A DNA stretch of 16,760 nucleotides from positions 1-16,760 of the forward strand of contig JALVYZ010000006.1 of assembly GCA_027037705.1 (NCBI GenBank), given 5' to 3'. The DNA comes from a bacterium (GTDB taxonomy: Bacteria > DYJV01 > JALVYZ01). The translations under genes were made by a program, and so were the position numbers. This document shows, one piece after another, positions 3,079 through 15,967 of the stretch. The notes beneath the pieces are model-generated. The model did no database searches, was not told the DNA's origin, and worked only from the letters and a program-made list of their open reading frames with translations. Position 1 is the first letter of the stretch; the number at the start of each line of letters is the position of its first letter.

Positions 3079-3155
3079 AATAATAGAATATCAAATCTTT
3101 ATAGCTAATCAAATTAACAACTATTCTGCAAATATAATGAAAAAGGGGGATGGCT

Positions 3156-4316
3156 ATGAGCAAGAAAATTAAAATAGGCATTGTGGGAGTTGGTAATTGT
3201 GCAAGTTCTTTAATTCAGGGTATTTATTATTACAAAGATAAAAATCCAGAAGACATTATTGGACTTATGCATTATGAAATTGGTGGATATAAACCTTCTG
3301 ATATTGAAGTAGTATGTGCTTTTGATGTTGATAAAAGAAAAGTTGGAAAAGATGTAGCTGAAGCAATTTTTGAATTACCAAACTGTACAACAATTTTTTG
3401 TAAAGATATACCAAAAACAGGAACAATTGTTAAAATGGGAAAAGTTTTAGATGGAGTTGCAGAACATATGAAAGAATATGATGAAAAATATACTTTTGTA
3501 GTCTCAGATGAGCCTGAGGCAACAAAAGAAGAAATAGTTAGACACATTAAAGAGTCAGGTTGTGAAATATTGGTAAATTATTTACCTGTTGGGTCTGAAC
3601 AAGCAGTAAGATTTTATGCAGAATGTGCATTAGACGCAGGTGTGGCATTTTTTAATTGTATGCCTGTATTTATTGCATCAGATCCTATGTGGGCAAAAAA
3701 ATTTGAAAAAGCAGGTCTTCCAATTATTGGAGATGATATAAAAGCACAACTTGGTGCTACAATAACTCACAGAGTTTTAGTTGATTTATTTAAAAAAAGA
3801 GGTGTTAAATTAGAAAGAACATATCAATTAAATACAGGTGGAAACACCGATTTTTTAAATATGTTAAATAGGTCAAGACTTGCATCAAAGAAAAAATCAA
3901 AAACAGAAGCTGTACAATCTGTTGCTGCAAAAAGATTACCAGATGAAAATATCCATGTAGGACCAAGTGATTACGTACCTTGGCAAAAAGATAATAAAGT
4001 TTGTTTCATAAGAATGGAAGGAAAATTATTTGGCGATGTGCCTATGAACTTAGAGTTAAGGCTTTCAGTGGAAGATTCGCCAAATTCAGCTGGAGTAGCA
4101 ATTGATGGGATTAGATGTCTAAAATTAGCCTTAGATAGAGGTATAAGTGGTATATTAGAAGGTCCAAGTGCATTTTTCTGTAAACATCCTCCTAAGCAAT
4201 ATCCAGATGATATAGCTTATAAAATGGTAGAAGATTTTATAAATGGAACTGGTGTGGAGGAAGTTGATGAAGTGTCTGATATTAGCAGCGGGGAGGGGAT
4301 CGAGGCTACCGCATAA
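3156..4316 (+). CDS. ino1: Myo-inositol-1-phosphate synthase
   Basis: The enzyme converts glucose 6-phosphate to L-myo-inositol 1-phosphate using NAD. It is the first step towards di-myo-inositol phosphate (DIP). The 386-residue length fits the short prokaryotic form, not the roughly 530-residue eukaryotic one. The N-terminal Rossmann motif GVGNCASSLIQG is at 11-22. Further family segments are NYLPVGSEQA, DDIKAQLGATITHRVL and LNTGGNTDFLNM, the last typical of the catalytic and tetramerisation domain. I choose ATG 3156 because AAGGGGG (3143-3149) is then six bases away; an alternative ATG at 3150 touches the ribosome site. The 3' end overlaps the next gene by 50 bases, so the two are surely co-expressed. 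Confidence 0.93.
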   Translation: MSKKIKIGIVGVGNCASSLIQGIYYYKDKNPEDIIGLMHYEIGGYKPSDIEVVCAFDVDKRKVGKDVAEAIFELPNCTTIFCKDIPKTGTIVKMGKVLDGVAEHMKEYDEKYTFVVSDEPEATKEEIVRHIKESGCEILVNYLPVGSEQAVRFYAECALDAGVAFFNCMPVFIASDPMWAKKFEKAGLPIIGDDIKAQLGATITHRVLVDLFKKRGVKLERTYQLNTGGNTDFLNMLNRSRLASKKKSKTEAVQSVAAKRLPDENIHVGPSDYVPWQKDNKVCFIRMEGKLFGDVPMNLELRLSVEDSPNSAGVAIDGIRCLKLALDRGISGILEGPSAFFCKHPPKQYPDDIAYKMVEDFINGTGVEEVDEVSDISSGEGIEATA

Positions 4317-5565
4317 AAAACCTAAACCTTTAATTGAAATTTTAGGCGTTCCTTTAATAGAGAGAGTCATCCGCACTGCTGTTGACAGCGGTGTGGATGA
4401 ATTTTATATTGTTTTAGGTAATAAAGCAGATATTATCTCTTCTTATCTTTCCAGATTATCTGAAAATTTAAAAATAAAAATTAAAATAATTTTCAATGAA
4501 AATTGGAGTTCATTTGATAATGGTTTTTCTGTATTAAAAGCGAAGAAATATTTAAAAGAACCTTTTCTGCTTTTAATGGCAGATCATATAGTTGATAAAG
4601 AAATATTGGAGAAAATCCTTAAAAGTCAACCTGTTGATGATGAGGTATTATTAGCTGTTGATATTAGAAAAGAAAATCCATATGTTGATATCGAAGAAGC
4701 TACTAAAGTAATTGTTGAAAATGATTTTGTAAAAGATATTGGGAAATCACTGATAAATTATGATGGTTTTGATACTGGAGTTTTCTACTGCAGCCCAATT
4801 ATTTTTGAAGCAGTTGAAGAAGCTTTAAAAGAGAATAAAAGTAAACTTTCAGATGCAATAAAAATATTAGCTAAAAAAAATAAAGTAAAAGCTGTAGAAA
4901 TAGATGAAGGTTTTTGGATAGATATTGATAATGAAAAGTGTATTAAAAAAGTAGAAAATTATTTATTGAAAAGACTAAATAGCAAAATAAATGATGGAAT
5001 TATTTCAAAAAAGTTAAATAGACCTATTTCAATAAAAATTTCAAAATTTTTACTAAAATTTAACGTTACACCAAATCAAATTTCAATTATTTCTTTTTTA
5101 ATCTCATGTTTAGCTGCATATCTTTTTTCTTTTAAAAGTTATTTTGGATTATTTTTTGGCGGAATTCTTGCTCAGCTTTCATCAATTATTGATGGATGTG
5201 ATGGAGAGGTTGCAAGATTAAAGTATAAATCTACCAAATTTGGGGCATGGCTTGATGCTATTTTAGATAGATATTCAGATGCATTCCTAATTTGGGGATT
5301 GATATGGCATGAATTAACAAAAAATGCATTCTTTTGGGGGATGTTAGCATTAATTGGAACTTTTTTAGTTAGTTATACAGCAGATAAGTATGATAATTTA
5401 ATGAAAGAAAAAATTTATAATTCTACAATAAGGATAGGAAGAGATTTAAGAGTTTTTATAATTTTTGTTGGTGCAATATTAAATCAGGTAATTTTAACAT
5501 TAGCAATATTAGGAATTTTAATGAATATAGAAGTTGTTAGAAGAATATGGATATGCCGTGAATAA
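4267..5565 (+). CDS. Bifunctional CTP:inositol-1-phosphate cytidylyltransferase / di-myo-inositol-phosphate-phosphate synthase (IPCT/DIPPS)
   Basis: This is a two-domain enzyme. Residues 1-235 are a nucleotidyltransferase (LAAGRGSRLP at 6-15, KPKPL at 18-22, metal-binding ADH at 105-107) expected to make CDP-inositol from CTP and inositol 1-phosphate. Residues about 245-432 are a membrane CDP-alcohol phosphatidyltransferase. Its signature is complete: D309, D312-G313, A316-R317, G326, D330 and D334, surrounded by hydrophobic helices. It would join CDP-inositol to a second inositol 1-phosphate, giving phosphorylated DIP. The same fusion is known from Archaeoglobus fulgidus. The start is ATG 4267, with GGAGG at 4256-4260 six bases upstream; an upstream ATG at 4243 lacks such a site. 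The first 16 codons overlap the ino1 tail in another frame. Confidence 0.93.
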   Translation: MKCLILAAGRGSRLPHKKPKPLIEILGVPLIERVIRTAVDSGVDEFYIVLGNKADIISSYLSRLSENLKIKIKIIFNENWSSFDNGFSVLKAKKYLKEPFLLLMADHIVDKEILEKILKSQPVDDEVLLAVDIRKENPYVDIEEATKVIVENDFVKDIGKSLINYDGFDTGVFYCSPIIFEAVEEALKENKSKLSDAIKILAKKNKVKAVEIDEGFWIDIDNEKCIKKVENYLLKRLNSKINDGIISKKLNRPISIKISKFLLKFNVTPNQISIISFLISCLAAYLFSFKSYFGLFFGGILAQLSSIIDGCDGEVARLKYKSTKFGAWLDAILDRYSDAFLIWGLIWHELTKNAFFWGMLALIGTFLVSYTADKYDNLMKEKIYNSTIRIGRDLRVFIIFVGAILNQVILTLAILGILMNIEVVRRIWICRE

Positions 5566-6139
5566 TTTTAACGAGATAAAAAGTCACATTTTGAAAATAA
5601 TTTCTAACTCTCCTCTTCCAGAGGATTTACCTCATGCTAAAAATACTCTTCATTGGTTATTAAAAGTTTATCCCAAAGCAGATTTTCAATTAAAAATAGC
5701 AGCACTTGGACACGATATTGAAAGAGCTGTGCCTGAAAGATTAAAGAGGGAAGATTTTAATAATTATGATGAATTTAAAAAAGCTCATGCATTAAGAAGC
5801 GCAAAAATTTTAAAAAATATTTTATTGAATTTTAATTTATCCGATAATATAATACAAAATATTTTTAACATAGTAAAAAATCACGAACATGGTGGAGATT
5901 TTTATTCTAACATCTTAAAAGATGCAGATTCACTATCTTTTTTTGATGTAAATATAAAGTATTTATATGAAAGAGAGGGTTTTGAAGGGACCCTTGAAAG
6001 AGCAATATGGGGATATAAAAGACTCTCAAGTTTAGGAAAAAAATTTTTTAAAAATATTGATTATGAAAATGATGAATTAAACTTGATAAAAGAAAAAATT
6101 TTGAAAATGGAGTTTAAAAATGGAGATAAGAATTGTTGA
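5558..6139 (+). CDS. HD-domain metal-dependent hydrolase; candidate phosphatase of DIP synthesis
   Basis: This 193-residue soluble protein has the HD-superfamily metal pattern: H26, the doublet H52-D53 (LGHDIER), H77, H109 in NHEHGG, and D122/D124 in KDADSLSFFD. Such proteins are usually phosphohydrolases acting on phosphomonoesters or nucleotides. The start is uncertain. GTG 5558 overlaps the IPCT/DIPPS stop by eight bases and lacks a clear ribosome site, so coupled translation is likely; a TTG at 5534 would add eight residues. The last 20 bases overlap pilT. DIP synthesis ends with removal of a phosphate from the DIPPS product, and this gene is placed where that enzyme would be expected. 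This role is inference; a nucleotidase or signalling hydrolase remains possible. Confidence 0.8.
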   Translation: MNNFNEIKSHILKIISNSPLPEDLPHAKNTLHWLLKVYPKADFQLKIAALGHDIERAVPERLKREDFNNYDEFKKAHALRSAKILKNILLNFNLSDNIIQNIFNIVKNHEHGGDFYSNILKDADSLSFFDVNIKYLYEREGFEGTLERAIWGYKRLSSLGKKFFKNIDYENDELNLIKEKILKMEFKNGDKNC

Positions 6140-7211: not shown

Positions 7212-7233
7212 ATTTATTCTTCCCCTAAATTTT
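7203..7233. repeat. AT-rich inverted repeat at the pilT/hfq convergent junction
   Basis: AAAATTTAG (7203-7211) and CTAAATTTT (7225-7233) form a perfect 9-bp inverted repeat with a 13-base loop. It spans the pilT stop and the last codons of hfq. On the minus strand the stem runs into a T-rich stretch, so it may act as a weak terminator for hfq. On the plus strand no good U-tract follows. It could be a by-product of AT-rich sequence. Confidence 0.35.
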
Positions 7234-7456
7234 GGATATTTTCAACCTCTTTTGTAGGGAATATGTAAGAAATAGAATGTTTAAATATTAATATTGGATT
7301 TGAACCAGAAACTTCTTTTAATAAAATACTATAGTTATCAAATGCTGTGATATAACCTTCAAAAGTTCTATCATTTCTAATTTGAACATAAACAGGAATT
7401 TTATTTTTTCTTATTTTATTCAAATATGCATCCTGAATATTAAAACTTTTTTTCAT
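7214..7456 (-). CDS. hfq: RNA chaperone Hfq
   Basis: Hfq forms a hexameric ring that binds A- and U-rich RNA and helps small RNAs pair with messages. This 80-residue protein has the Sm1 region NIQDAYLNKIRKNKIPVYV, the strand region FEGYITAFDNYSILLK, and the Sm2 motif IFKHSISYIFP, matching the usual YKHAIS-type RNA-binding motif. A short extra stretch (SGSNP) lies in the loop between strands before Sm2. The start is the ATG at 7456-7454, preceded by GGAGGGG on the minus strand; an open frame continues upstream to 7495 but does not look like Hfq. It ends two bases from pilT in convergent orientation and diverges from the LysR gene. Confidence 0.93.
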   Translation of the reverse strand: MKKSFNIQDAYLNKIRKNKIPVYVQIRNDRTFEGYITAFDNYSILLKEVSGSNPILIFKHSISYIFPTKEVENIQNLGEE

Positions 7457-7513
7457 ATCCCCTCCATTTTTTGTAAAAAAATTAACATAATGCAATTAAA
7501 AAATCAAATTTTC

Positions 7514-8858: not shown

Positions 8859-8876
8859 GTTGAAGGTTTTTTATAT

Positions 8877-9068
8877 GTTAGTTGAGGTTAGTTGATGTTA
8901 GTGAAAAGAATTTAAAAGACTAAAGATAGAAGGTAGTAGATGCGTAAAAGTGGTTATGCGAAAATGCGAAAAAACAAAATTGAAAAATTTATTCATAATC
9001 GCATAAACGCATATATGCATATATAATTATAAAATTAATCACTAAATACGAACAACGAATCACGAATA
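8877..9068. repeat. Nested short-repeat spacer between hisI and hisG
   Basis: The hisI-hisG gap is made of short repeated words. GTTAGTTGAG/GTTAGTTGAT/GTTAGTGA occur in tandem at 8877-8904. ATGCG words recur at 8940-8944, 8956-8960 and 8964-8968. Their inverted forms CGCAT occur at 9000-9004 and 9008-9012, and TCACTAA at 9039-9045 is the inverse of the TTAGTGA at 8898-8904. ACGAA words end it at 9049-9065. The result is an outer and an inner imperfect inverted repeat, ending next to the hisG ribosome site. I infer a folded leader or a degenerate repeat insertion. Confidence 0.5.
8940..9026 (+). CDS. Possible 28-residue leader peptide ahead of hisG
   Basis: ATG 8940 has AGAAGG (8928-8933) six bases upstream and runs 28 codons to TAA at 9024-9026. 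The peptide is basic, with repeated Met-Arg-Lys and two histidines, at residues 19 and 27. It lies on the inner inverted repeat of the spacer. It has no histidine run like classic his attenuators. It may be a chance frame in repeat sequence. Confidence 0.2.
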   Translation: MRKSGYAKMRKNKIEKFIHNRINAYMHI

Positions 9069-9084
9069 AAAAAAGGAGTAAACA

Positions 9085-9976: not shown

Positions 9977-11167
9977 CTAACTTACTTTAACTATTAAAGC
10001 AGCTCCTGTATCACCTGCAGCACAGCCTGTAAACAATCCATATCCACCACCTAATAATACAAGTTCTTCAATCATTTCAATTATTAATCTTCCAGCAGTT
10101 GGTCCCTGTGGATGCCCAAATATAAGTGAAGAACCATAATTGTTCATTTTTTCTACAGGTACATTAAAGTGTTTAGAAAAGTATATATCATTAACTGCAA
10201 AAGGATTATGAGTTTTAATAACTTTAATATCATTTATAGAAAGATTTGCATTTTTCAAAGCCATTTCAGCAGCTGGAACTGGAGCTTTTGCCATTGCTCC
10301 TTTTTCAACTCTTGAAAATCCATATGAAAGAATCTGAATTTTTATATTTTTATCTTCACTTAATTCGTTAGCTTTTTCTTCTGTGGTTACAATTATTGCA
10401 CAATTACCATCTGCTGGATGTGTTTGAGCTCCAAATGAATGAACTCCATTTGGGAGAACAGGTTTAAGTTTTGCAAGCCCTTCTTTTGTAGATGGAATAA
10501 TTCCCTGATCTTCTTCTATCACTTTAACCTCTTTTTTACTTATCCTAACTTCAAGTGGAAAGAAGTATCTTTTTTGAAATTCTCTGTCATTTTTTAAAGC
10601 ATCAACATATTGATTATATCTTATTAATGCAACTTCATCGCAATCTTCTTTTGTAGCTCCAATTTCTTTTGCAACTTTCTCAGCTGTTTCTATCATTGCA
10701 TTTTTAGCAAATGGATCGTGGTTAAAATTGTCCATTAGCCAATTTTCATGAATAACTTCTCCACCAGGTCCCAATGGATTTGGCCAGACTATGTGAGGAC
10801 CATTTGAACATCTGTCAGTCATTAAATTAAAAACATTATTCATCTGGCCTGTTTCAAGTGAAACTGCTGAATAATATAAACATGTGGTTGAAGTTGAGCA
10901 AGCTTGACTTACATTGCAACCAGGCATATGTTCAGCACCAATTAATGCTGCAGCCCAGGGTGCTCCGTAAAAAGCCTGTTTTTGATGAATTGTAAAACCA
11001 AGATAAAGATAGTCAAACTGTTTGGGATCAATTCCTTTTTTTTCAAGCCATTTCTTAGCAGTTGATGCACCAAAAACTATTGAATGTTCATTTTGAAGAT
11101 CCATCTGCCATTTGCAAAATGGTGAAGAGTAATACCCTTTGTATGGAATATACGCTTTTGTAAACAT
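9977..11167 (-). CDS. Thiolase-family protein (acetyl-CoA acyltransferase), divergent
   Basis: Thiolases cleave 3-ketoacyl-CoA with CoA or condense acetyl-CoA. This 396-residue protein has the usual length and places its reactive residues normally: nucleophile C90 (SQACSTST), H352 in GHPQGPTAGR, and the C-terminal C382. The surroundings differ from FadA/AtoB: the NEAF box is HNPFAVND (320-327), and the last motif is GCAAGDTGAA rather than CxGGG. It belongs to a divergent branch often annotated only as thiolase family. The start ATG 11167-11165 has AAGGAGGAG upstream. It is second in a minus-strand pair after an acyl-CoA synthetase, separated by a heptamer hairpin element. Fatty-acid beta-oxidation or a related acyl-CoA route is the likely setting. 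Confidence 0.85.
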   Translation of the reverse strand: MFTKAYIPYKGYYSSPFCKWQMDLQNEHSIVFGASTAKKWLEKKGIDPKQFDYLYLGFTIHQKQAFYGAPWAAALIGAEHMPGCNVSQACSTSTTCLYYSAVSLETGQMNNVFNLMTDRCSNGPHIVWPNPLGPGGEVIHENWLMDNFNHDPFAKNAMIETAEKVAKEIGATKEDCDEVALIRYNQYVDALKNDREFQKRYFFPLEVRISKKEVKVIEEDQGIIPSTKEGLAKLKPVLPNGVHSFGAQTHPADGNCAIIVTTEEKANELSEDKNIKIQILSYGFSRVEKGAMAKAPVPAAEMALKNANLSINDIKVIKTHNPFAVNDIYFSKHFNVPVEKMNNYGSSLIFGHPQGPTAGRLIIEMIEELVLLGGGYGLFTGCAAGDTGAALIVKVS

Positions 11168-11189
11168 TAATTTCTCCTCCTTTTATTTT

Positions 11190-11258
11190 AGTCGGGAGTC
11201 GGGAGACTGGAGTCAGGAGCTTTTATTTCTCCGCACTCCAGACTCCATACTCCGCACT
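11190..11258 (-). repeat. Intercistronic heptamer hairpin element, copy A
   Basis: Read on the minus strand, the left arm is four GTNNGGA heptamers (NN = GC, AT, CT, GC), the loop is AAATAAAAG, and the right arm is four inverse units ending CCCGACT. By hand, 23 of 30 positions pair. Mismatches fall at the NN pairs of heptamers 1, 2 and 4 and at the second base of heptamer 3. It lies five bases after the acyl-CoA synthetase stop and ends just before the AAGGAGG of the thiolase gene. It matches copies B (14925-14993) and C (15877-15946). Confidence 0.9.
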
Positions 11259-11263
11259 ATAAT

Positions 11264-12844
11264 CTATTTAAAATCCGACCAAGAACCAAATCTTTCTCTT
11301 AATTTTCTATGTAAATTTTTTCCAGTTGCAGTTCTTGGCATTTCTTCATCAGGGATAAAATGTACTTTTTTAGGAATTTTGTATCCTGCAATTTTGCCTC
11401 TACAGAATTGTCTAATTTCTTGAGCAAGTTCTTCTGTAGGTTCGATACCATCATGGAGAACAACAATTGCCGTAACAGCTTCTCCCCATTTTTCATCCGG
11501 AATTCCAATTACAGCCACATCTTTAACAGCAGGATGTTCTCCTACTACTTTTTCTACTTCTGATGGATATACATTTTCTCCACCTGTAATAATCATATTT
11601 TTCTTTCTATCAACTAAAACATAATAGCCATCTTCATCTTTGTAAGCCATATCTCCAGCGCTAAACCATTCGCCATGAAAAGCTTCTTTTGTAGTATCTG
11701 GTAATTTCCAATATTCTTTAAATAACATTGGACCACGAGAATAGAGTTCTCCAACTTCTCCTTGAGGCACTTCATTCCCTTCTTCATCCAGTAATTTTAT
11801 TCTATCTGTTCCAATAACTTCCCTACCAATTGATCCTAATTTTTTTAATTGATCTTCAGGTCTCAATAATGTAACAAGACCTGCCTCTGTAGAGCCATAA
11901 GCTTCAAAAAGTTCTGAATTTTTAAAATATTCTAAAATTCCAAGTTTTGTATCTTTTCTTGCAGGAGCAGAAGAACATAATAATTTTCTAATGCAGCTTA
12001 CATCATATTTATTTTTAACTTCATCTGGTAATGCTAAAATCATAATATAGTGAGTTGGAACAAGAGATGTAAAGGTTATTCTTTCTTCAGAAATTGTTTT
12101 TAATAAATGTTCAGGATCAAAACTCTTTCTATTATAAACACAAACACCACCATATGTGTAGGTGAATACAAATGAATAAAAAATTGAATTAATGTGGCAC
12201 ATAGGCATTACAAGAAGACCTATGTCATCTCTATTAAAACCAAACTCTGCAATGTTTATTAGATAAAAAGCAGTGAAACTTTCATGAGTCCTCACAACTC
12301 CTTTTGGTTTTCCAGTTGTTCCACTTGTATACATAATAACCCAAACATCTTCTGGTAAAACCTTTACATCTGGTTCTTCAGGGGAACCATCTTTTATAAT
12401 TTTTTCGTAGCTTAAAAAGCTGTCAGGAATATTATCATCACCAAAATAGATAAAGTTTTTACTGAGTTCAGGATTTAATTTGTCTCTAATAGAATTAGCT
12501 CCTTCAGCAAATTCTTTTTGAATAATAAAAGCTTTTGCTTCTGAATTTTGTAAAATATATTCATATTCAGCTGGTGGCATTCTAAACATAATAGGAACAG
12601 CAATTAACCCAGCTTTTGCACATGCCCCATAAATTTCCATCCATTCTACACAATTGTAAGCAATTATTGCAATTTTATCTCCTTTCTTCAACCCAAGATC
12701 AAGCAATCCGTTTGCAAGCTTGCAACATCTTTCATTCCATTCTTTGAAAGTCATACTTCTTGATAAGTCTTTAGCTCCCATTTTATCGGGATATAGATAT
12801 GCTGCCATTCTCAATACTTCTCCAACATGTAGCCATTTTGCCAT
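11264..12844 (-). CDS. AMP-dependent acyl-CoA synthetase (acyl-CoA ligase)
   Basis: The enzyme activates a carboxylic acid with ATP to an acyl-adenylate and then to acyl-CoA. It is full length (526 residues) with a complete set of adenylate-forming motifs: YTSGTTGKPKG (172-182), YGSTEAG (316-322), GEWFSAGD (391-398), DRKKNMIITGGENVYP (412-427), and the C-terminal catalytic lysine K509 in PRTATGK. The chain length of the acid cannot be told; medium- to long-chain fatty acids are plausible from the neighbours. The start ATG 12844-12842 has AAAAGGAGG upstream. It leads the minus-strand pair with the thiolase, and its leader contains a perfect palindrome that may be an operator. Confidence 0.94.
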   Translation of the reverse strand: MAKWLHVGEVLRMAAYLYPDKMGAKDLSRSMTFKEWNERCCKLANGLLDLGLKKGDKIAIIAYNCVEWMEIYGACAKAGLIAVPIMFRMPPAEYEYILQNSEAKAFIIQKEFAEGANSIRDKLNPELSKNFIYFGDDNIPDSFLSYEKIIKDGSPEEPDVKVLPEDVWVIMYTSGTTGKPKGVVRTHESFTAFYLINIAEFGFNRDDIGLLVMPMCHINSIFYSFVFTYTYGGVCVYNRKSFDPEHLLKTISEERITFTSLVPTHYIMILALPDEVKNKYDVSCIRKLLCSSAPARKDTKLGILEYFKNSELFEAYGSTEAGLVTLLRPEDQLKKLGSIGREVIGTDRIKLLDEEGNEVPQGEVGELYSRGPMLFKEYWKLPDTTKEAFHGEWFSAGDMAYKDEDGYYVLVDRKKNMIITGGENVYPSEVEKVVGEHPAVKDVAVIGIPDEKWGEAVTAIVVLHDGIEPTEELAQEIRQFCRGKIAGYKIPKKVHFIPDEEMPRTATGKNLHRKLRERFGSWSDFK

Positions 12845-12858
12845 TTAATTCCTCCTTT

Positions 12859-12876
12859 TGTATATTTTTTTATACA
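12859..12876. promoter_or_regulatory. Palindrome TGTATA-N6-TATACA, site 1 (candidate operator)
   Basis: TGTATATTTTTTTATACA is a perfect 6+6 inverted repeat with a six-base centre. It overlaps the inferred -10 box of the minus-strand acyl-CoA synthetase promoter and lies just above its ribosome site. An identical-arm copy lies 45 bases further on. The position suggests a repressor site. Confidence 0.6.
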
Positions 12877-12900
12877 TTGAATTTTAGTAATAAAAGTCAA
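12871..12900 (-). promoter_or_regulatory. Promoter of the minus-strand acyl-CoA synthetase/thiolase genes
   Basis: On the minus strand, TTGACT (12900-12895) is followed after 18 bases by TGTATA (12876-12871). Transcription would begin about 20 bases before the ATG, leaving room for the AAAAGGAGG ribosome site. The -10 match is moderate and overlaps palindrome site 1. Confidence 0.4.
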
Positions 12901-12903
12901 AAA

Positions 12904-12921
12904 TGTATATTAGATTATACA
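12904..12921. promoter_or_regulatory. Palindrome TGTATA-N6-TATACA, site 2 (candidate operator)
   Basis: TGTATATTAGATTATACA repeats both arms of site 1 exactly, with a different centre. A shorter palindrome, TGTATACA, lies close by at 12927-12934. Together they fill the middle of the divergent region between the two acyl-CoA operons. No regulator gene is visible in the window. Confidence 0.6.
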
Positions 12922-13076
12922 AAAAATGTATACAAATTATTTTCTACACTTAAAAAAAGAGATAAATTTTAAAACTTTCTTGAAATTTCTTAGTTTTAAG
13001 TTAAACAATATTAATGCCATAATTAAATGGCAAAATAATTGCAAGTGAAAATAAAAAATTGTTTTGGAGGATAAGT

Positions 13077-14048
13077 ATGGCTGAAAACAAACCAAAGTTA
13101 AAAATTGCAATTGTTGGAGCAGGTGCTCTTGGAGGAACATTTGGAGCATTATTAACAGATGCAGGCTTTGATGTTACACTTGTTGAAATTGACAAAAGAA
13201 GAGTTGATGCAATTAAAAAAAATGGAATTGTTTTACATATGCCAGATGGCACAATTAAAACTGTTAAAGTAAAAATTACAGATGATCCTAAAACTGTAGG
13301 GATTGTTGATATTGTACAAATTTCTGTTAAAGGATACCATACACATTCTGCTGCAAAAACTGCTTTACCAATGATTGGAGATAATACTTATGTGCTTTCT
13401 GTTCAAAATGGAATTGGAAATCTTGAAGTTATAGCAAATGTTGTTGGAAAAGAGAAGGTTATAGGAGGTGTTACAGCTCATAGTGCAATGCCAATATCTT
13501 ATCATGAGATAAAATATGCTGGTGGAATGGGTGGAATATGGATTGGGAGATATGATGGTAAAAAAGATAAAAGGCTCGAAGAGATAGCAAAAATTTTTAA
13601 TGAAGCTGGATTTACTACAGAAATAATTGAAGGGAATATTGAAGTTCCTATATGGAGAAAACTTCTTGCTAATGTCGCGTGTAATGCAGTTGCAGCGATT
13701 ACAGGATTTACTGGAAATCAATTATTGGGCTGTGAGCATACAAGGGAGCTAATAATTAAGTTAGCAGAAGAAACAGCAGAAGTTGCTAAAGCAAAAGGTC
13801 TGGAGTTTGATGAGTTAAATTATGCTGGTGCTTTTGTTTTAAAAGCATTGTCTGGAGTTAAAGATAATAAAATTTCAATGCTTCAGGATATTGAAGCTAA
13901 AAGAAGGACTGAAATTGATACATTGAATGGTGCCATAGTAAGAGAAGGGAAAAAATATGGAGTGCAAACACCATATAATGAGACAATTACATTGATTATA
14001 AAGTCTTTAGAGCAGAAAATTCTTTGGGAATTGAAGGGATTAATTTAA
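13077..14048 (+). CDS. panE: Ketopantoate reductase family protein (2-dehydropantoate 2-reductase)
   Basis: PanE reduces ketopantoate to pantoate with NADPH on the way to coenzyme A. The 323-residue protein has GAGALGG (14-20) for the cofactor, VQNGIGN (109-115), and family residues equivalent to the Escherichia coli enzyme: K195 and N199 in RKLLANVACN, and S267 and E279 in SMLQDIEAKRRTEIDTLNG, with the expected spacings of 4 and 12. So it looks active. ATG 13077 has TTGGAGG at 13064-13070 six bases upstream. It heads the plus-strand acyl-CoA series, divergent from an acyl-CoA synthetase. The setting leaves open another 2-oxo or 3-oxo acid substrate. A clear plus-strand promoter was not found. 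Confidence 0.85.
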   Translation: MAENKPKLKIAIVGAGALGGTFGALLTDAGFDVTLVEIDKRRVDAIKKNGIVLHMPDGTIKTVKVKITDDPKTVGIVDIVQISVKGYHTHSAAKTALPMIGDNTYVLSVQNGIGNLEVIANVVGKEKVIGGVTAHSAMPISYHEIKYAGGMGGIWIGRYDGKKDKRLEEIAKIFNEAGFTTEIIEGNIEVPIWRKLLANVACNAVAAITGFTGNQLLGCEHTRELIIKLAEETAEVAKAKGLEFDELNYAGAFVLKALSGVKDNKISMLQDIEAKRRTEIDTLNGAIVREGKKYGVQTPYNETITLIIKSLEQKILWELKGLI

Positions 14049-14054
14049 TTTTGA

Positions 14055-14083
14055 TTGACAAACAAAATTTGATTTCTTATGAG
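14055..14083 (+). promoter_or_regulatory. Possible internal promoter before the enoyl-CoA hydratase gene
   Basis: TTGACA (14055-14060) is followed after 17 bases by TATGAG (14078-14083). The -35 box is consensus and the -10 box matches four of six. It lies in the 64-base gap behind the reductase gene and could let the hydratase and later genes be expressed separately. Confidence 0.4.
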
Positions 14084-14112
14084 TTGGGAAGAAAAAATAA
14101 AGGAGGTTAATG

Positions 14113-14922
14113 ATGAGTTACAATTTTCTAAACATTGAAGTAGATGAAGGGGTTGGTATTATAAATTTAAACAGACCACCTGCAAATTCATTAAATGAAG
14201 AATTTACAGCAGAACTTGGAAAAGCTTTTGATGAGGTAAAAAATAATGATGAAATTAAAGTTGTAATATTAAAAAGCAACCTTCCAGGTTTCTTCATTGC
14301 TGGGGCAGATATTAAAATGTTTGCTCAAATGACTCCAGAGCAGGGGAAACAAGTATCAAAAGATCTACAAGAGGTTATTAATAAACTTGAAGATATGGAG
14401 AAAATTAGTATTGCTGTACTTAGTGGTTTTGCTCTTGGAGGAGGTTTAGAAGTAGCTCTTGGTTGTGACTTTAGATTTGCATGCAAGAAAGTAAAAATAA
14501 AGGATAAAGATAGAGATGTAATGATTGGGCTTCCAGAAACTAATCTTGGTTTATTACCTGGTGCAGGAGGGACTCAAAGATTATCAAGGGTAATAGGGCC
14601 AAAAAAAGCATTATTTTTTATTTCTCAAGGTGCTCAAATGACAGCTGAAGAAGCTTTTAGATTGGGAATTATTGAAAAATTATATGATACTGCAGATGAA
14701 CTTTTTGAAGAATCATTAAAATTTGCAAAAATGCTTGCTAAAAGAGCTGTAAAAGCTATTGGATATGCAAAATATGCAATTTATAAAGGATATAATAAAG
14801 ATATGCCTGAAGCATTAGCAATTGAATGTGAAATGTTTTATAAAGCTTTTCAAACTGAAGATTGTAAAGAAGGATTGAATGCATTTATTGAAAAAAGAAA
14901 ACCAGAATTTAAAGGAAAATAA
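14113..14922 (+). CDS. Enoyl-CoA hydratase (crotonase family)
   Basis: Adds water to trans-2-enoyl-CoA to give 3-hydroxyacyl-CoA. The 269-residue length is that of a single-domain crotonase. The oxyanion-hole segment IAGADIKMF (62-70) and both catalytic glutamates are present: E113 in GGGLEVALGCD and E142 in LPETNLGLLPGAGGTQRL, equivalent to Glu144 and Glu164 of rat liver hydratase. A short charged insertion (KIKDKDRD) precedes the second one. I choose ATG 14113 over 14110 because AGGAGG (14101-14106) is then six bases away. Hairpin element B and the dehydrogenase gene follow. The glutamate pair argues for hydratase rather than isomerase or decarboxylase activity. Confidence 0.92.
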   Translation: MSYNFLNIEVDEGVGIINLNRPPANSLNEEFTAELGKAFDEVKNNDEIKVVILKSNLPGFFIAGADIKMFAQMTPEQGKQVSKDLQEVINKLEDMEKISIAVLSGFALGGGLEVALGCDFRFACKKVKIKDKDRDVMIGLPETNLGLLPGAGGTQRLSRVIGPKKALFFISQGAQMTAEEAFRLGIIEKLYDTADELFEESLKFAKMLAKRAVKAIGYAKYAIYKGYNKDMPEALAIECEMFYKAFQTEDCKEGLNAFIEKRKPEFKGK

Positions 14923-14924
14923 AT

Positions 14925-14993
14925 AGTGCGGAGTGCGGAGTCTGGAGTACGGAGAAATAAAAACTCCTGACTCAAGTCTCCAGACTCCCGACT
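14925..14993 (+). repeat. Intercistronic heptamer hairpin element, copy B
   Basis: It begins two bases after the hydratase stop. The left arm has four GTNNGGA units (NN = GC, GC, CT, AC), the loop is AAATAAAAA, and the right arm is four inverse units ending CCCGACT. By hand, 22 of 30 positions pair, with mismatches at the same places as copies A and C plus one more. An A/T linker and TAGGAGG of the dehydrogenase gene follow at once. Confidence 0.9.
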
Positions 14994-15014
14994 AAAAATA
15001 TAGGAGGTAAAGTT

Positions 15015-15878
15015 ATGAAATTTGAAGATATTAAAAAAATTGGAGTTTGTGGCGCTGGTAGTATGGGAAGTGGTATTATTCAAATTTGTGCTATGGCAGG
15101 ATATGAAGTACAGGTTCTTGAAGTTAGTGAACAGGCCTGGGAAAGAGGAAAAAGCTTAATTGACGGCAGTTTAAAAAGATTTTTGAAAAAAGAGAAAATT
15201 ACACAAGACGATTATGATGCAATATGGAAACGTATAAGTTTTTCTACAGATGTTGCTCCATTTAAAGATGTTGATTTTGTTATTGAAGCTGTTTTTGAGA
15301 ATTTTGATGTAAAAAAAGAAACATACAACAAATTAGATGAGGTTTTAAGAGAAGATGTAATTATTGCATCCAACACATCATCAATTTGTATTACAGACCT
15401 TTCTTCAGTAACAAAGAGACCAGACAAATTTATTGGAATGCATTTTTTTAATCCAGTTCCAATGATGAAGCTTGTAGAAGTAATTCCTGCTCTACAAACT
15501 TCTGAAGAAACAGTTGAAATTACTATGCAATTAGCTAAAAAAATTGGAAAAGAGCCAGTTAAATGTACAGATACTCCTGGTTTTATTGTGAACAGATTAC
15601 TTGTTCCAATGTTTATTGAAGCTGCAAGAATGGTGGAAGAAGGTGTTGCTACTCCAGAAGATATTGATAAAGCTATGAAACTTGGAGCTGGTATGCCTAT
15701 GGGACCATGCGAGTTAATGGATTTTACAGGTGTTGAAATAACATATCATGTTGGTAATATTTTTTATGAATATACTAAAAACGCATACTTTAATCCACCA
15801 CACTTATTAAGAAAGATGGTTAAAGCTGGATATCTTGGGAGAAAAGCAGGAAAGGGATTTTATGATTATGATAAATAG
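15015..15878 (+). CDS. hbd: 3-hydroxyacyl-CoA (3-hydroxybutyryl-CoA) dehydrogenase
   Basis: Interconverts 3-hydroxyacyl-CoA and 3-ketoacyl-CoA with NAD(P). The 287-residue protein is the short single-function form like clostridial Hbd. The Rossmann motif GAGSMGSG is at 13-20. The catalytic residues line up with human short-chain hydroxyacyl-CoA dehydrogenase: S122 (SNTSS), H143 (HFFNP), E155 and N193, with the same spacings (21, 12, 50). The C-terminal dimerisation domain ends with the typical GRKAGKGFYDY. ATG 15015 follows TAGGAGG at normal distance. Its stop codon overlaps the start of hairpin element C. With the hydratase and thiolase it can run either beta-oxidation or butyrate-type synthesis. 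Confidence 0.94.
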   Translation: MKFEDIKKIGVCGAGSMGSGIIQICAMAGYEVQVLEVSEQAWERGKSLIDGSLKRFLKKEKITQDDYDAIWKRISFSTDVAPFKDVDFVIEAVFENFDVKKETYNKLDEVLREDVIIASNTSSICITDLSSVTKRPDKFIGMHFFNPVPMMKLVEVIPALQTSEETVEITMQLAKKIGKEPVKCTDTPGFIVNRLLVPMFIEAARMVEEGVATPEDIDKAMKLGAGMPMGPCELMDFTGVEITYHVGNIFYEYTKNAYFNPPHLLRKMVKAGYLGRKAGKGFYDYDK

Positions 15879-15946
15879 TGCGGAGTATGGAGTCGGGAGT
15901 GCGGAGAAATAAAAAACTCCTGACTCCCGTCTCCCGACTCCAGACT
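15877..15946 (+). repeat. Intercistronic heptamer hairpin element, copy C
   Basis: The element overlaps the last two bases of the dehydrogenase stop codon. Left-arm NN pairs are GC, AT, CG, GC; the loop is AAATAAAAAA; the right arm ends CCAGACT. By hand, 23 of 30 positions pair. In heptamer 3, CG replaces the CT of copies A and B on the left arm, and the right arm changes to match. An A/T linker and AAAGGAGG of the next gene follow directly. Confidence 0.9.
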
Positions 15947-15967
15947 AAAAAATAAAGGAGGTTTGCC

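Follow-up and report, generated by a model that had tools for sequence, protein, structure and literature searches.

The 16,760-nucleotide (nt) stretch of bacterial DNA analysed here (the window; GenBank assembly GCA_027037705.1, contig JALVYZ010000006.1, GTDB lineage Bacteria; DYJV01; JALVYZ01) carries three intercistronic hairpins, which represent a single 70-nt element copied locally: an array of GGAGTNN heptamers facing its own inverse. The element very probably belongs with the intercistronic heptamer-repeat insertions known from Xanthomonas and Nostoc, diversified in this genome into mosaics of ~10 unit families. Location between the stop codon and the Shine-Dalgarno sequence of co-directional genes, polarity, local copying and the presence of empty sites in a relative from the same order (G001) are all directly observed. 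Taken whole, with an insulating effect on the flanking cistrons added to this identity, the explanation is favoured here, if modestly.

Copy 1 (14924..14994, +) separates an enoyl-CoA hydratase gene from a 3-hydroxyacyl-CoA dehydrogenase gene, copy 2 (15876..15947, +) lies between the latter and an AMP-binding (acyl-CoA ligase-like) gene, and copy 3 (11189..11259, -) between an AMP-binding ligase gene (11264-12844, -) and a thiolase-like gene (9977-11167, -). All three have the sequence TAGT-NN-(GGAGT-NN)3-GGAG, a 9-10 nt A-rich loop, four inverse cores and a terminal ACT(A), each arm being made up of a truncated TAGT and four GGAG(T) cores with two-base spacers between them. The sense arm of copy 1, TAGT(NNGGAGT)n, occupies 14924-14954 (+) and is followed by the loop and a C-rich arm with ACTA at its end. 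The element begins within 2 nt of the upstream stop codon in copy 1 (the codon ends at 14922), includes it in copy 2, where TAG at 15876-15878 terminates the upstream gene, and starts 4 nt beyond it in copy 3 (TAG 11266-11264, -). Downstream, 8, 9 and 8 nt separate copies 1, 2 and 3 from the ribosome sites GGAGG (15003..15007, +), GGAGG (15957..15961, +) and GGAGGAG (11174..11180, -), respectively. All three copies are in the sense orientation, and their predicted RNA folds, with minimum free energies of -31.2 to -39.4 kcal/mol and z values of -3.95 to -6.5, are far from chance and leave the ribosome site unpaired. The existence of the hairpins, the shared design, the start at or within five bases of a stop codon, the end about ten bases before GGAGG and the orientation along transcription had all been recognised in a preceding sequence-only reading, and they are borne out by these measurements. 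As GTCTCC in the right arm and a AAATAAAA loop are derived features private to the three window copies, they are related by copying and are not three independent instances. No Rfam family scored above its gathering threshold in the window.

One relative from the same order, G001, was compared. The operon is syntenic in G001, with genes for an ApbA-type protein, enoyl-CoA hydratase, 3-hydroxyacyl-CoA dehydrogenase and ligase encoding proteins of 62-80% identity. The spacers that hold copies 1 and 2 are 92 and 89 nt long in the window and 27 and 29 nt, and repeat-free, in G001; the gap orthologous to that of copy 3 is 57 nt as against 96 nt. The same difference is seen across 12 orthologous module-bearing gaps, whose median length is 114.5 nt in this genome but 26 nt in G001 (p = 0.001). 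For 26 gaps free of modules the difference (2 nt here versus 15 nt in G001) is not significant (p = 0.10), and the part of G001 that was sampled showed no modules. The modules are therefore lineage-specific insertions into existing operon spacers, placed beside the stop codon or across it. The fixed position, which the sequence-only reading took as an argument against random insertion, is no argument against insertion. At the junction of the 3-hydroxyacyl-CoA dehydrogenase and ligase genes the stop codon comes from the element, and the reading frame is slightly shorter than in G001 (287 amino acids versus an open frame of 290). Strong hairpins directly after stop codons could be intrinsic transcription terminators, but this is scarcely credible: the stems are followed on the sense strand by an A-rich sequence and not by a U-run, the hairpins are absent from the list produced by a terminator scan, and they are inside an operon that is syntenic in G001, with a short spacer there.

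The host genome (G000) is a 2.05 Mb draft in 496 contigs that is 93% complete. At up to two mismatches, GGAGTNNGGAGTNNGGAG occurs at 158 places in this genome and a reversed control pattern at 5. A covariance model was built from seven hairpins and run over the genome; with many contigs shorter than 3 kb masked and E-values that are rough, it identified ten hairpin loci. At eight of these the better-scoring strand is that of the neighbouring genes; the other two loci (C394:755-824 and C107:3040-3102) are weaker copies. Outside the hairpin loci GGAGTNN arrays are mostly single and are present at many more sites, so that the family, with ~10 hairpins and many single arrays across the genome, is not confined to the acyl-CoA locus, where the sequence-only reading had placed all three copies. 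That reading had also suggested the genome scan, which located the family genome-wide between stop codon and Shine-Dalgarno sequence, in sense, in co-directional spacers. Two outcomes had been named as speaking against a positioned family, namely scatter without strand or position preference, or an absence of copies elsewhere with those in the window resulting from recent duplication; there is no such scatter and copies do exist elsewhere, but the three in the window are copies of one another.

A wider occurrence in other phyla was considered and rejected, the heptamer pattern being near the control level across 40 further genomes. Matches to the covariance model in G016 were rejected as family members as their source is an unrelated GGGGTCAGGAGTTTACATTT inverted repeat; at locus L311 of this unrelated genome, a GGGGTCAGGAGTTTACATTTAACATT inverted repeat is a weak match to the model. 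Within G000, a hairpin copy at L165:735-824 (contig C394) overlaps the 3′-end of a gene for an FAD-subunit-like protein, and the final codons and stop codon of this gene seem to come from the hairpin. Two near-identical hairpins of a second subfamily, with a AAAAAAATTTAAAAA loop and GACACC in the right arm, occupy two consecutive gaps at L152:4905-4981 and 5962-6038, which suggests short-range copying. Random contigs at first seemed to be repeat-free, as if the assembly bin combined two genomes, but this was rejected: codon usage is similar and weak mosaics are present, for example at L190:6519-6697. A sample with an apparent GC content of 19% resulted from masked contigs.

GGAGTNN arrays are one module among ~10 degenerate short-period repeat families that fill the intercistronic gaps, the units being GGAGTNN, GAAGGNN, GTTAGTT-, GTGAANN, ATGAA-, ATGCG+3, GTTATT+4, GTGTTAGTGTTGGTG, TCGTGNN, GGCTATA- and TTTTGAA. 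The position statistics were obtained from ~470 kb of contigs picked partly for matches, and so repeat-bearing contigs were preferentially sampled. Among gaps of at least 70 nt, all modules considered, 64/121 co-directional, 4/12 convergent and 2/32 divergent gaps contain a module (co-directional versus divergent, p = 6e-7). GGAGT, GAAGG, GTTAG, GTGAA and ATGAA units are present mainly on the stop side, in sense, and the complements of GTGTTAG, GTTATT and TTTTGAA units are on the start side. GGAGT is in sense in 39 cases and antisense in 11 (p = 9e-5), with the antisense arrays later in the gap (mean relative position 0.58 versus 0.17 for sense), and polarity is stricter still for ATGAA (14:0), GAAGG (17:2), CTAACAC-type (24:0) and AATAAC-type (19:1) modules. 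GGAGT preceded the start-side modules in all counted cases (15:0, 14:0 and 13:0). A sense GGAGT array begins within ~25 nt of the stop codon of 30 genes, and 12 of these 30 stops are TAG, compared with 46/271 otherwise (p = 0.006), an enrichment due to the TAGT head, which often supplies the stop.

Several long intercistronic mosaics (L162:1675-2121, L160:13074-13309 and L164:6111-6522) contain several repeat families in repeated order, and folding is no explanation for these. The window has a mosaic of its own, between HisI-like and HisG-like genes (8859..9084, +), in which (GTTAGTTGA)n is followed by (ATGCGNNA)n and its inverse, CACGAAT units and then AGGAG; it has no GGAGT module and its polarity is that of the hairpins.

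The arrays have exactly four GG cores at a 7-nt period in 36 of 58 cases, the number expected if each were to form a two-quartet G-quadruplex on the coding strand after the stop, and four units are likewise preferred by the GGGAATC repeats for which Rehm et al. (PMC4692102) proposed G-quadruplexes. In this genome, however, the tracts are GG with 5-nt loops only, and hence weak, the C-rich arm would compete in facing pairs, and modules that have no G-runs (GTTAG, ATGAA, GTGAA, AATAAC and CTAACAC) follow the same placement rule, which makes G-quadruplexes very unlikely as the explanation. Single arrays and unrelated modules, including those of GTTAG, ATGAA, CTAACAC and AATAAC, obey the stop-side/start-side rule with no strong fold, which leaves the initial assumption that the hairpin is the unit of the family unsupported. 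A broader possibility, to which we give limited credence, is a positional grammar, in which ~10 unrelated repeat families, most of them without G-runs, would follow one rule, a sense set after stops and a complement set before starts, imposed by one dedicated process or by a selective force acting on mRNA; G-quadruplexes would not be its cause.

Variation among the three window copies is concentrated in the spacers, affecting 7 of 16 spacer columns and 1 of 46 core columns (p = 1.6e-4). The two-base spacers are drawn from a small vocabulary, CG, CT, GC, CA, GT and AT, with CC and GA never used. Conserved cores with variable spacers, together with a fixed polarity in the mRNA, are features expected of sites, spaced by 7 nt, for an RNA-binding protein of the CsrA or S1 type that controlled decay or translation, and both CsrA and Hfq are encoded in the genome (Hfq at 7214-7495, -, in the window; Pfam Hfq, E = 5e-19). 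The A-N-GGA core recognised by CsrA, however, requires A as the first spacer base, which is the case for only 13 of 212 spacers, and CsrA as reader of the arrays was rejected; in addition, G001 has CsrA but no detected repeats, and the ~10 unrelated units would require ten readers. Such a protein is, overall, an improbable explanation.

Adjacent units rarely have the same spacer, with 17 identical pairs among 154 versus 29 expected (p = 0.005), and this depletion speaks against recent slippage, which was rejected as the source of the arrays. The spacers of facing arms are complementary in 5/31 cases, with 6.0 expected by chance, and paired spacer bases are in fact fewer than chance (14 versus 28, p = 0.0003, the copies not being independent). 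With complementarity no higher than chance, palindromic duplication was likewise rejected as the origin, and the hairpin consists of two arrays that face each other. These features also bear on miniature transposons of the REP/RAYT type, or retroelement products, as the source. A location downstream of genes in co-directional gaps, hairpins formed by facing pairs and an arrangement in mosaics do resemble REPs and BIMEs (PMC3733652), but the arms are tandem arrays, not palindromes, with spacers complementary at chance level, and neither a Y1 transposase (PF01797) nor a reverse transcriptase (PF00078) was found in the genome, ~93% complete and with short contigs masked. Mobility by RAYT or reverse transcriptase was accordingly rejected, and an origin of this kind is highly improbable.

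As we envisage it, short-range copying both generates the arrays and spreads them, and they would be kept or tolerated only where neither a promoter nor a coding sequence is struck. Where both ends of a gap have received the same unit, the transcript would form an extended stem in which 4-5 bp helices alternate with 2x2 internal loops, with the ribosome site free. This stem might then insulate the two cistrons, protecting the upstream mRNA against decay from its 3′ end and keeping their translation uncoupled. Such an insulating effect is the likeliest local effect, but is put forward tentatively. Several observations weigh against it or against the wider account. Compensated pairs number zero among the seven copies, each change in the core of an arm disrupts a base pair, and the RNAalifold covariation term is +1.08, giving no support for RNA pairing; with a degenerate eighth copy included, a compensatory change is present in 1 of 22 pairs. 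As judged from compensatory changes in the sequences, there is thus no support for pairing as a selected property. Facing-arm gaps have a mean fold z of -5.2, whereas that of other mosaics with the same polarity is -1.3; most mosaics fold little beyond chance, and so the stem-loop cannot explain the placement of the family. The genes were, moreover, simple open reading frame calls on a draft assembly, and the module patterns were fixed after inspection of the data, with both strands scored alike.

A rival account is a near-neutral origin, in which products of replication slippage, template switching or repair pile up where they are harmless, as in the spacer between stop codon and ribosome site within an operon, the hairpins being an inert by-product. 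The empty sites in G001, the depletion of modules from promoter gaps, the lack of covariation in the stems and the identical placement of single arrays and weakly folding mosaics are all consistent with this. Harmless random insertion would not, however, be expected to give most modules a strand polarity relative to transcription, nor to leave cores constrained relative to spacers, and the depletion of identical neighbours (17 versus 29 expected, p = 0.005) is the opposite of recent slippage. Near-neutrality is a possibility of the second rank, but nearly as likely as insulation.

The sequence-only reading knew of no precedent for the inverted, start-linked design, but both the placement rule and the inverted pairs have already been published for the heptamers of Xanthomonas and Nostoc. 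Rehm et al. 2015 (PMC4692102) described GGGAATC and GGGANTN in Xanthomonas and GGGGA(C/T)T in Nostoc sp. PCC 7120, intergenic repeats with a preference for four units that are located between aligned ORFs and only rarely between divergent ORFs. Their G-strand is the coding strand within 50 bp after a stop codon, overlap with the stop included, and the non-coding strand within 50 bp before a start codon, and inverted heptamer pairs close together were found in 70 cases in Xcc and 75 in Xac. The host genome shares the heptamer unit with two variable positions, the preference for four units (36/58 arrays), the bias towards aligned gaps (64/121 co-directional versus 2/32 divergent), the G-strand in sense near stops and antisense near starts, and the close inverted pairs. 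It differs in that the unit, GGAGTNN, has GG and not GGG, with GGG generated only by an xG spacer; without GGG cores able to form three-quartet G-quadruplexes, the arrays are classed as a variant, outside the G-quadruplex class. Further differences are the restriction of the spacers to about six dinucleotides, little recent slippage, a different phylum and the presence of about nine more unit families, mostly G-run-free, with the same polarity. The novelty lies in the GGAGTNN unit itself, the limited set of two-base spacers, the diversity of G-run-free units that are co-oriented, and the empty sites.

Three other systems are comparable to a lesser degree. The cyanobacterial STRR heptamers (Mazel et al. 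1990, as cited in PMC2670836) are also intergenic tandem heptamers and can fold into hairpins between genes within an operon, for example between hupS and hupL, with roles in transcript stability or translational coupling suggested (PMC2670836). The cyanobacterial arrays inspected are, however, homogeneous tandem copies, whereas adjacent units here usually differ in their spacer (17/154 identical). The units GGAGTCA and GGAGTCG do occur in cyanobacteria, on Nostoc, Halotia and Oscillatoria plasmids; the 200 kb plasmid A of Trichormus variabilis has no GGAGTNN arrays, but does have other exact heptamers. The TAACTGA direct repeats of Beggiatoaceae, Cyanobacteria and Bacteroidetes, for which binding by CsrA- or S1-like proteins was proposed (MacGregor 2015, PMC4679880), are similarly short, gene-oriented and mostly intergenic heptamer arrays, but they are mostly positioned just upstream of start codons, mostly with no recognisable ribosome site, and have essentially one unit and essentially no inverted pairs. 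REP and BIME elements (PMC3733652) are likewise downstream of genes in co-directional gaps, with facing units that form larger hairpins and mosaics; their units are, however, 20-40 bp palindromes with GTAG/CGTC tags, the GTAG families being tied to RAYT, whereas the genome studied here has tandem heptamers and no RAYT was found.

Elsewhere in the window, an ORF at 4243-5565 encodes a fused nucleotidyltransferase and CDP-alcohol phosphatidyltransferase and directly follows an inositol-1-phosphate-synthase-like gene (3150-4316); the gene pair hints at the synthesis of an inositol-phosphate osmolyte or lipid.

Reports of oriented heptamer repeats close to stop codons go back to at least 2015, and G-quadruplexes have been the main proposal for what they do. 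In the genome studied here, the same placement rule is followed by units that are unable to form quadruplexes, the arrays are not slippage-like and there are clean empty sites. The question is thereby moved from quadruplexes to how oriented repeats enter, or survive in, operon spacers, and this genome offers defined operons in which that can be tested.

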